A stretch of 64,000 bases of DNA, taken from positions 78,332 to 142,331 of the forward strand of contig NZ_KB905344.1 of assembly GCF_000378765.1 (NCBI RefSeq), read 5' to 3'. The DNA is from Psychroflexus tropicus DSM 15496. Lineage in GTDB: Bacteria > Bacteroidota > Bacteroidia > Flavobacteriales > Flavobacteriaceae. The notes beneath the pieces are model-generated. The model made no database searches and was not told where the DNA came from. It saw only the letters and a program-made list of their open reading frames with translations. Below are positions 1 to 1,900 of the stretch, in pieces. The first letter of the stretch is position 1; each line of letters starts with the position of its first letter. The position numbers were made by a program, and so were the translations under genes.

Positions 1-2
1 AA

Positions 3-53
3 ATTATCGCCAAGATGGTTATCGATAATAAGGATTATAAGCCTGCGACCTAA
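3..53 (+). CDS. Possible C-terminal end of a gene entering from the left (16 codons, then TAA)
   Basis: From position 3 an open frame reads IIAKMVIDNKDYKPAT and stops at 51-53. It continues to the left edge, so it could be the true end of a gene lying outside the window. The same tail recurs in five further copies downstream, each with its own stop codon, so this copy may instead be just the first repeat unit. I do not recognise the protein from these 16 residues. Confidence 0.35.
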   Translation: MIAKMVIDNKDYKPAT

Positions 54-97
54 GTCAGTTGAAAAGATTTGACTGAACGTTTGCGCTTGGCGAAAAT
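3..97 (+). repeat. Repeat unit A1 with terminal inverted repeats
   Basis: The unit starts with ATTATCGCCAAG (3-14) and ends with CTTGGCGAAAAT (86-97); these are inverted copies with 11 of 12 positions matching. The left part is the 16-codon tail ending at 53. The right part is a non-coding palindrome with AGTCA and TGACT arms. The layout resembles a miniature mobile element, but no transposase is linked to it. Confidence 0.7.
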
Positions 98-106
98 ACA
101 TCCAAA

Positions 107-201
107 ATTATCGCCACGATGGTGATCGATAATAAGAATCATAAGCCTGCGACCTAAGTTGGTTGAAAAGATTTGACTGAACGTTGACGCTTGGCGAAAA
201 T
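107..201 (+). repeat. Repeat unit A2
   Basis: It has the same layout as A1. The tail reads MVIDNKNHKPAT and stops at 155-157. The right end CTTGGCGAAAAT (190-201) is intact, while the left inverted end has changed (CCACG in place of CCAAG). Confidence 0.7.
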
Positions 202-232
202 GTATTTTAAATTAAAAATACTCTATTTAACA

Positions 233-274
233 TCGAGCGGAGTCGAGAGTAGATTTGTTCTCGACTCCGCTCGA
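233..274. repeat. Perfect 16-bp inverted repeat, REP-like (copy 1)
   Basis: The arms TCGAGCGGAGTCGAGA (233-248) and TCTCGACTCCGCTCGA (259-274) are exact reverse complements around a 10-base loop. A second copy lies at 572-614. Decayed relatives of such sequence appear near 750-835 and at 27025-27038. Confidence 0.85.
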
Positions 275-343
275 ACGTAAACATTACTTCTAAGTTGTGT
301 AAATAGATCTTTAGATATTTTTGAAAAAGCTTAGAAGAAAATA

Positions 344-435
344 ATTACTAAGATGGTAATTGATAATAAGGACTACAAGCCTGCGACCTAAGTCAGTTGA
401 AAAGATTTGACTGAACGTTGACGCTTGGCGAAAAT
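344..435 (+). repeat. Repeat unit A3
   Basis: The tail reads MVIDNKDYKPAT, stopping at 389-391, with four synonymous third-base differences from A1. The right end is at 424-435. The left inverted end has been lost (ATTACTAAG). Confidence 0.7.
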
Positions 436-444
436 AAAATCAAA

Positions 445-539
445 ATTATCGCCACGATGGTTATCGATAATAAGGATTATAAGCCTGCGACCTAAGTCGG
501 TTGAAAAGACCTAGCTTAAAGTTGACGCTTGGCGAAAAT
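445..539 (+). repeat. Repeat unit A4
   Basis: The 13 tail codons (457-495) are identical to those of A1. The palindrome after the stop differs (arms TAAG and CTTA). The right end is at 528-539. Confidence 0.7.
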
Positions 540-571
540 GTAATTTAAATTAAAAATACTCTGTTTTAGCA

Positions 572-614
572 TCGAGCGGAGTCGAGATGTGGATTTGTTC
601 TCGACTCCGCTCGA
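572..614. repeat. Perfect 16-bp inverted repeat, REP-like (copy 2)
   Basis: The same arms as the element at 233-274 lie at 572-587 and 599-614 around an 11-base loop, within the second macro-repeat copy. Confidence 0.85.
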
Positions 615-683
615 ACGTAAACATTACTTCTAAGTTGTGTAAATAGATCTTTAGATATTTTTGAAAAAGTTTAGAAGAAAATA

Positions 684-731
684 ATTACTAAGATGGTAAT
701 TCATAATAAGGACCACAAACCTGCGACATAA
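684..731 (+). repeat. Repeat unit A5 (tail part only)
   Basis: The tail reads MVIHNKDHKPAT with TAA at 729-731. The palindromic right half seen in A1-A4 is missing; similarity to the macro-repeat ends near 735. Confidence 0.65.
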
Positions 732-903
732 GTTGATGAGATGTCACCTCGAGCAGCCTGTGCTGAACGAAGCCGAAGCAGAGTCAAGATGTAGATTTGT
801 TCTCTACTTTAGTTTATCCTGAGCAAGAACGAAAGGCTTAAACATTACTACTATACTTTTTGAATGGGTATTTGGGCATACTTTGAAAACTTAGAGGAAG
901 ACA

Positions 904-951
904 GTTATCATAATGGTAATCGACGATAAGGATCACAAGTCTGCGACTTAG
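904..951 (+). repeat. Repeat unit A6 (most diverged tail)
   Basis: The tail reads MVIDDKDHKSAT and stops with TAG at 949-951. It is the copy nearest to the recombinase gene and the most diverged, but the frame and length are still kept. Confidence 0.6.
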
Positions 952-973: not shown

Positions 974-975
974 TA

Positions 976-1006
976 ACCATGAATTCACCTGAGTTCATGG
1001 TTTTTT
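976..1006 (+). terminator. Intrinsic terminator directly abutting the xerC start codon
   Basis: ACCATGAATTC (976-986) pairs with GAGTTCATGGT (991-1001), with one G-U pair, and is followed by six T. The xerC ATG begins at 1007, the base after the T run. It may be the terminator of a lost upstream gene or an attenuator of xerC. Confidence 0.75.
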
Positions 1007-1900
1007 ATGGATTATATAGATGCTTTTTTAGACTATCTTGAACTTGAGAAGAAGTATGCCAAGCATACTGTATCCTCTTATGCTTCAGATTTGCAACAGT
1101 TTCAATCCTTTCTTCTCGAAGAATACGGGACATCTGATTTTTCGGAAGTGAATTATCCGATGATACGCCAGTGGATTGTCAGTTTTGTGGATAAGGGAAT
1201 GACCAACAAAACCATCAATAGAAAGCTATCTACTTTAAAAACGTTTTTCAAGTTTCTATTGAAAGTTAAAGCAATAGAGTTGAACCCTATGACTAAGCAC
1301 AAATCGCTCAAATTACCAAAGCGAGAGCAAGATGTGTTTTCAACGCAAGAGCTCGAGAAGGTTTCTGAATATTATAAGGAGGATAGTTTTGCTGAGGTTA
1401 GAGACCATCTGATTATTGAACTGTTGTACGCCACGGGAATGCGAAGACAAGAACTTATAGACCTTAAGCTTGATCATTTAGATTTCGAACAGAAACAACT
1501 TAAAGTTCATGGTAAACGGAATAAACAGCGTCTTATTCCATTAATGCCATCTACGATTAACTTAATTCGAAACTACCTAGAGCATCGTAAATTGCTAGCT
1601 ACGGACTCAGTTTCACTATTCTTAACAGCAAAAGGAAAACCTATCTACCCTAATTTGGTTTACAGAACCGTAAATAGTTATTTTAAAAAAATATCTAGTA
1701 AACGAAAACTAAGTCCGCATTTACTTCGGCATGCTTTTGCCTCACATCTGTTAGAAGAGGGAGCAGACCTTAGCGCGATTAAAGATTTATTGGGTCATAG
1801 CAGTTTAGCTTCAACAGAAGTCTATACCCACTCCAATTTTAAAGAATTAAGTAAAGCGCATTCAGCAGCTCATCCTCGATCAATAAAGGGAAAGAAATAA
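1007..1900 (+). CDS. xerC: Tyrosine recombinase, XerC/XerD type
   Basis: Site-specific recombinase of the Xer family, which resolves chromosome dimers at dif sites. It has an N-terminal SAM-like core-binding domain (about residues 1-90) and a C-terminal catalytic domain. The catalytic set is complete: Arg146 (TGMR), Lys170, His238 and Arg241 (PHLLRH), His264 (LLGHSS) and Tyr273 (VYTH). At 297 residues it has normal Xer length. The start at 1007 gives the usual Xer N-terminus (FLDYLELEKKY). XerC against XerD cannot be decided from sequence alone. It lies next to the tRNA-tuf cluster as in other Flavobacteriaceae, which argues for a housekeeping role, although it also adjoins a repeat array. 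Confidence 0.9.
   Translation: MDYIDAFLDYLELEKKYAKHTVSSYASDLQQFQSFLLEEYGTSDFSEVNYPMIRQWIVSFVDKGMTNKTINRKLSTLKTFFKFLLKVKAIELNPMTKHKSLKLPKREQDVFSTQELEKVSEYYKEDSFAEVRDHLIIELLYATGMRRQELIDLKLDHLDFEQKQLKVHGKRNKQRLIPLMPSTINLIRNYLEHRKLLATDSVSLFLTAKGKPIYPNLVYRTVNSYFKKISSKRKLSPHLLRHAFASHLLEEGADLSAIKDLLGHSSLASTEVYTHSNFKELSKAHSAAHPRSIKGKK

Follow-up and report, generated by a model that had tools for sequence, protein, structure and literature searches.

Why would the end of a bacterial gene be repeated several times downstream of its own stop codon? The window analyzed here, 64,000 nucleotides of the Psychroflexus tropicus genome, begins within a tandem array (positions 3 to 951) in which each unit repeats the final 51 nt of a gene for an acyl-CoA dehydrogenase (ACAD). 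The initial annotation, made from the window alone, had proposed that small elements repeatedly integrated at one gene end or, alternatively, that a tandem gene family had decayed. Our best explanation is that the array is a locus-specific gene-end repeat.

A tandem array of acyl-CoA dehydrogenase gene ends

All six copies reported by the initial annotation are present, with ATG codons at 15, 119, 353, 457, 693, and 913, and each encodes approximately MVIDNKDYKPAT followed by a stop codon. As the annotation had suggested, we extended the sequence to the left of the window, and this revealed a full ACAD gene (G000:C3:77062-78228) that ends with the tail. Its own end is a seventh copy, identical to A1, the first copy in the window. 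The ACAD stop codon ends at G000:C3:78228, and 3 bases and a 100-N assembly gap separate it from the first base of the window. Because the gap splits the array, seven is the count for the assembled sequence. The ACAD protein has 388 amino acids, ends in EILKEIIAKMVIDNKDYKPAT, and contains Pfam domains PF00441, PF02770, and PF02771. Its nearest named relatives, which are 97% identical, are in P. longus, P. lacisalsi, and P. montanilacus. A search of the P. tropicus genome with the tail gave five matches, all at the array (the gene's end and four copies).

All copies and arms in the window are on the forward strand. A1 (3 to 53) encodes IIAKMVIDNKDYKPAT and a stop, and between it and A2 (107 to 157; 4 differences from the gene in 39 nt) is an inverted arm, CTTGGCGAAAAT (86 to 97), which can pair with ATTATCGCCAAG, where the coding part of the copies starts. 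A3 (341 to 391) has 4 third-position differences in 39 nt, with a decayed hairpin arm ahead of it (31.6 bits), and A4 (445 to 495) has 1 difference in 39 nt; the arm between them is at 424 to 435. The arms after A2 (190 to 201) and A4 (528 to 539) were read directly from the sequence. Clear hairpins in a covariance model of the junction join A1 to A2 (52.1 bits) and A3 to A4 (48.4 bits). A5 (681 to 731) has 8 differences in 39 nt and scored 22.1 bits, no better than the gene's codons alone. A6 (901 to 951), which adjoins the native 3' flank, is the most distal and most diverged copy (9 differences in 39 nt).

This array was made longer by two dispersed palindromes and by duplication of a 338- to 340-nt superunit in which the copies are embedded (1 to 228 and 339 to 566 are 89% identical, and 249 to 393 and 589 to 733 are 96% identical). 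The palindrome, TCGAGCGGAGTCGAGA / TCTCGACTCCGCTCGA, lies at 226 to 281, and comparison within the window placed its second copy at 565 to 621. More copies are dispersed over contigs C1, C3, C4, C6, and C7 of the genome, and we labeled it REP-like. The layout in P. curvus (L020) is related: a similar palindrome region occupies the same place, and a single distant copy follows it. Promoter-like matches also recur in the units (8, versus a shuffled mean of 3.1, in L009:8100-9400), with a sigma-70 consensus that may not apply to Bacteroidetes.

Downstream of A6 are a terminator-like hairpin and T run (975 to 1002, forward strand), similar to one that precedes xerC in array-free Psychroflexus. The tyrosine recombinase that had been noticed at 1007 is indeed there (1007 to 1900, forward strand; 297 amino acids), but it is of the housekeeping XerC/XerD type. 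Its position is conserved, including beside array-free ACAD genes, and this syntenic neighbor is a putative bystander to the array. Several genera have a short gene between ACAD and xerC (L056, L067, L078, L081, L087, L090, L091, and L112), which by eye we take to be ribosomal protein S21, presumably rpsU; it is absent from that place in Psychroflexus (L009). Beyond 1900 is a gap without a gene for the ribosome hibernation factor that we presume lies between xerC and the tRNAs in other Flavobacteriaceae, and by eye there is a tRNA-like gene cluster ahead of tuf (2029 to 2520).

Two results connect the array to this gene end specifically. We scanned 596 open reading frames of at least 100 amino acids in 82 sources, namely the window, L009, and 80 named loci. 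A copy of the 3' end followed within 600 nt in 22 of them, every one an ACAD. The same scan at 5' ends gave one match among the 596. A decayed tandem gene family was rejected: 26 of 27 genus genomes have a single ACAD match at E<=1e-100 (the other has none), and the copies start near codon 373.

The initial annotation had also argued from codon positions that the units evolved as real coding ends. Its count of 5 variable first, no variable second, and 8 variable third positions is right from the Met codon to the stop codon, but over K376 to T388 of the gene and six copies the counts are 5, 1, and 8, the sole second-position change being in the codon ahead of the ATG. Within the window the bias is weak (p=0.07 for 5/1/8 and p=0.02 for 5/0/8). 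The argument itself was borne out: the units are ends of a conserved gene, and they differ in the way that diverging coding sequences do. Pooled over 55 arrays, differences between the gene and the last detected copy numbered 37, 42, and 174 at first, second, and third positions, and in 32 distant arrays retained after thinning they numbered 16, 20, and 93. A copy counts as the last here if none farther out reaches 25 of 39 matches, so more decayed outer copies (for example in L088, L096, and L111) are uncounted. The set omits L023 and L041 to L047, whose genomes are shared with other loci, and 8 further duplicate genes. Between the gene and first copy, 24 longer arrays gave 2, 1, and 26, and the third-position share for gene-versus-gene differences of similar size was 0.79. 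This third-position bias indicates that the copies descend from real coding ends, although the last ones carry extra second-position change, as if partly decayed. As a check on adenine-directed variation by a diversity-generating retroelement, we noted that the differences within the P. tropicus array involve all four bases.

The inverted arm

The units have a common order: a tail and stop codon, an arm (consensus TTTTNGCGAAAAT), a spacer, and then the next copy. The tail is the last ~16 to 19 codons of ACAD plus the stop codon. The arm complements the 5' coding part of its own unit (IIAKMVI), pairing with the gene codons ATTATCGCNAAAATG (IIAKM) with a shared A-A mismatch, and usually lies 11 to 16 nt from the Ala codon of the next copy. 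The repeat step is 75 to 95 nt, or 103 to 107 nt in several Psychroflexus, and exceeds the 75- to 107-nt range only in L009 (156 nt across the N gap, and 220 to 236 nt), L020 (382 nt), and L033 (226 nt). The maximum copy number that we found, with the gene's own end included, was 8.

We analyzed covariation in 31 hairpins, leaving out L020 (spacing >130 nt) and the first P. tropicus junction, which holds N. The alignment (alignment A1, as distinct from tail copy A1) lacks L024, L083, and later-fetched loci, including those of the genus g92. Six pairs had changed on both sides, a number reached in 11 of 500 shuffles. Counted by cells, 20 had changed on both sides, compared with a shuffled mean of 6.9, and none of 500 shuffles was as high. 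With the copy as partner of the arm, 83.5% of cells paired, and sliding the partners by 1 to 3 columns lowered this to 37 to 53%. RNA folding was strong relative to shuffles for five of six hairpins (z of -3.1 to -6.7), but the P. tropicus A1-A2 junction folded no better than its shuffles (z of -0.8). Most array loci have a post-stop arm above their shuffles, the exceptions being L020, L083, and L116, and none of the array-free loci has one (p below 0.05).

Where the gene and first copy differ, the arm complements only the gene at 96 sites and only the copy at 25 (53 of the 55 arrays). Most of these sites are at the ragged start of the copy; within the copied part (positions 6 to 20), the numbers are 22 and 7. 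The match between arm and gene might reflect nothing but copy decay. The Ile374 codon of the gene is ATC in 30 of 32 array genes, compared with 14 of 62 array-free genes (49 of the 62 have Ile there), and the ATC share of Ile codons in the gene bodies is 0.22 with arrays and 0.21 without. A tree-aware version of this test was weak (median p of 0.07).

The arm does not fit an intrinsic terminator: no T run follows the junction stems, and the one forward-strand terminator-like site of the P. tropicus array is the one after A6.

Distribution and history in the Flavobacteriaceae

Arrays are found in Psychroflexus, Gelidibacter, Winogradskyella, Salegentibacter, Mesonia, Kordia, Tenacibaculum, Planktosalinus, and other genera. 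Copies at the ACAD end were detected in 21 of the 80 named loci and, in a second set that shares species with the first, in 8 of the 26 loci from the genus. Four further named loci have a degenerate copy (L054 and L093) or a sequence that ends at the start of the second copy (L100 and L113), and the sequence of L030, a genus locus, also ends there. Of 397 family genomes, 37 matched R1, the model of the junction hairpin, and we assign 36 of these to the ACAD end. This is a lower bound because the filters were strict; P. curvus (G003), for example, was missed. The set of 55 arrays includes loci that were fetched for their hairpins and so gives no prevalence.

The initial annotation had recognized that the same array at many unrelated loci would speak against coding ends. 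Instead, matches were at the ACAD end or on contig-end fragments, apart from two weak ones inside other genes (41.6 bits in G164:C23, and 36.8 bits in G080:C3, the only match in that genome). The G119 match is on a fragment at the end of a contig, and the ACAD gene of that genome is cut off by the end of another contig. Of the two matches in G228, one adjoins the gene and the other is on a contig-end fragment. An exact hairpin pattern, run on 27 genus genomes, matched only four: at the ACAD end in G001, G011, and G013, and in G015 at the end of a contig. The pattern has no match in P. tropicus itself, where the codons differ. The array coincides with assembly breaks: the 100-N gap in P. tropicus and contig ends in G015, G119, and G228.

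A search of the order matched 7 of 296 genomes; six of these belong to the family, and the seventh, G496, is from a different family and matched weakly (36.5 bits). A search of the class matched 2 of 295, both in the family and none outside it. Both samples include family members. Rfam gave no match up to E 0.5 within L009:8000-9600, and a limited search of the open-access literature returned no description of a gene-end array. We also searched for fossil arrays in 66 sources (62 array-free loci and four of g92). Of 61 matches, 55 were the gene's own last codons, and the remaining six had E values of 0.21 to 1.8; the search missed the known fossil in L188 and so has low power.

On a tree of ACAD bodies from 94 loci, 32 of them with arrays or remnants, array presence requires at least 18 state changes, 11 of which are forced by well-supported branches. 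Shuffled states need more (mean of 27; none of 500 was as low as 18). Junction similarity falls with gene distance among 54 arrays (Mantel r of -0.40; 0/999), and once gene distance is above 0.2 the highest junction identity is 0.88.

Inheritance can be followed in g92. By eye, a second copy is recognizable in 9 of 13 species and a fossil in one more, intact units adjoin the gene, and one decayed distal copy is common to L183, L185, L187, and L188. The pattern resembles inheritance in which the units beside the gene are young and the distal ones decay. The same genus holds the one clear case of exchange. L134 and L174 have 34 differences in 1,116 nt of gene body but 7 synonymous sites within the last 25 coding nt, and their last copies differ at 1 of 42 positions and the flanks at 0 of 100; L134 has one unit more. 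The run of dense differences starts before the tail is reached, in the manner of a homologous recombination tract. The simplest reading is that a foreign gene end was imported by homologous recombination and the old end was left downstream.

Other cases are less specific. L022 and L024 are identical in the tail (51 nt) and junction (59 nt), whereas gene third positions are 21% different, and four Salegentibacter have near-identical gene tails (1 to 3 differences in 54) with third positions 29 to 39% apart and last copies that differ at 5 to 10 of 42 positions. Recombination and a unit that spread recently explain these two cases equally well. L103 and L120 differ at 5 of 51 tail and 7 of 41 junction positions, compared with 7% of gene third positions, an excess for which fast mutation, rather than import, could be responsible. 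We also asked whether the nearest array-free relative resembles the gene tail or the last copy. It was closer to the tail in 23 cases, closer to the last copy in 14, and tied in 16 (n=53; most pairs saturated), which gives no clear direction.

Dozens of species hold one apparently homologous structure at every stage (none, single, long, and decaying), so this single locus shows how repeats are born, homogenized, imported, and lost.

Origin and maintenance

Several known systems resemble the array in part. Direct copies around an inverted piece are called tandem inversion duplications, and quasipalindrome mutations have reportedly been described in E. coli. The array likewise has direct copies with inverted, complementary sequence between them. 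It is in this respect like template-switch products; according to PMC8794818, template switching can make and keep complementary stems. Unlike them, it spans a bacterial family at one gene end, with up to 8 copies. Some integrative elements use a gene 3' end as their attachment site, and, as with such elements, a gene end is duplicated here and may have been replaced by an incoming version with synonymous changes, which displaced the old end. The synonymous differences fit such restoration, and the one import case fits homologous recombination. However, we found no element, integrase, or distant second end: nothing of this kind was seen between the duplicated ends, the copies are 75 to 107 nt apart in nearly all arrays, and no copy was far from the gene on its contig in 149 family genomes (98 with a match, three of them weak and in other frames). 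In that sample, G119 has a further tail copy on a second contig, which ends in the array. The tail was not found in viral contigs with an exact degenerate pattern or in plasmids or phages with window positions 1 to 104 in distant mode. The array is like REP/BIME and MITE-like repeats in having short palindromic tandem units but, unlike them, was found at one locus and carries coding sequence with a stop. A dispersed REP or MITE repeat would have many genomic locations, but R1 matches were restricted to the ACAD end (36 of 397 genomes) or contig-end fragments, with the two weak exceptions. Integron attC arrays also have folded sites between tandem units, but by eye neither cassettes nor attC core boxes are visible here.

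We give a probability of roughly one-half to the reading that the array is an ancient duplication of the tail plus an inverted arm, kept by descent, unequal recombination, and import, with the arm matched through template switching or selection. It would probably have originated once in the Flavobacteriaceae, when template switching duplicated the tail with a short inverted piece. Inheritance, as seen in g92, would have followed, with growth and shrinkage by unequal recombination between tail repeats and, as the tree suggests, many losses. Occasionally a relative's gene end may have been imported by homologous recombination, leaving the older end downstream, and distal copies would decay. Either template-switch correction or selection for a stop-spanning hairpin may keep the arm matched to the gene codons. 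Besides the less specific cases, the weak tree-aware test of Ile374, and the possible effect of copy decay on arm matching described above, two points count against this reading. Direct repeats flanking a palindrome are expected to be lost fast, so persistence would need selection or frequent regain. Also, the third-position share of 0.69 exceeds the ~0.53 that we estimate if a neutral copy is combined with a gene branch that changes synonymously. Import or another process must therefore be common, yet we found only one clear import case.

The repeated integration proposed by the initial annotation was not supported: we saw neither an element nor an integrase between copies, junctions track the gene tree, and g92 arrays are inherited. 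That reading can be put as a nonautonomous mini-element of ~80 nt with inverted ends, the left end being the gene's own codons, which a trans-acting recombinase inserts at the ACAD 3' end, restoring the C terminus with its own version and pushing the old end downstream. Inverted ends with a short spacer resemble recombinase core sites, and the units have both; the arm is a better match to the coding end of the unit it belongs to than to the copy that follows, and copies differ in the manner of coding ends. The identical L022/L024 unit and the Salegentibacter tails, lying between diverged gene bodies, are further support. Even so, we consider this reading unlikely. Apart from the two weak matches in other genes, no unit was off-locus in the searched family genomes, neither an element nor an integrase was seen between copies, and the 0.88 ceiling on junction identity and the g92 differences that begin upstream of the tail do not suit it. 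Odd lineage-specific residues are, moreover, common to copies and their own gene (KIVIDKR in G245 and YDPAT in G260). Recurrent independent duplication, in which a fragile gene end that slips or folds easily near IIAKM often re-creates the array, is a long shot. The very patchy distribution, with its 18 or more changes, and arrays nearly identical to their gene (such as L158 and L132) are in its favor, but by eye different genera have an arm, GCGAAAAT, that looks homologous and keeps the same A-A mismatch, as do parts of their spacers in seeming homologous, and g92 species share a decayed distal copy.

Since the untranslated arm covaries with synonymous gene codons, maintenance by template switching can be contrasted with selection on a stop-spanning hairpin. 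In its pure form, the latter holds that the arm works at the mRNA level by pairing with the next copy or, across the stop codon, with the last codons of the gene. Its role might be termination or stabilizing the 3' end, and the extra copies would be tolerated by-products. The covariation, the strong folds, the synonymous preference for ATC at Ile374, and an arm that tracks the gene's Ala375 codon are consistent with it. We nevertheless find it doubtful as a full account: the P. tropicus hairpin is no better than its shuffles, the stems have no T run and a separate terminator follows the last copy, 62 of 94 loci do without the structure, and, according to PMC8794818, template switching can create and maintain stems as well. 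There is, finally, a small chance that the array is a stop-spanning selfish or functional single-site unit, which took the gene's last codons as its left inverted end, dictates synonymous codons, multiplies beside the gene, and spreads family-wide only at this gene end.

Two Gelidibacter loci provided further observations. By eye, ~80 to 130 nt past the ACAD stop codon of L111, a distal hairpin looks still paired through changes in both arms, with the tail copy gone. In L111 and L116, the gene's own tail is altered (...PASLTF and ...PST), and the downstream copies retain ...PAT.
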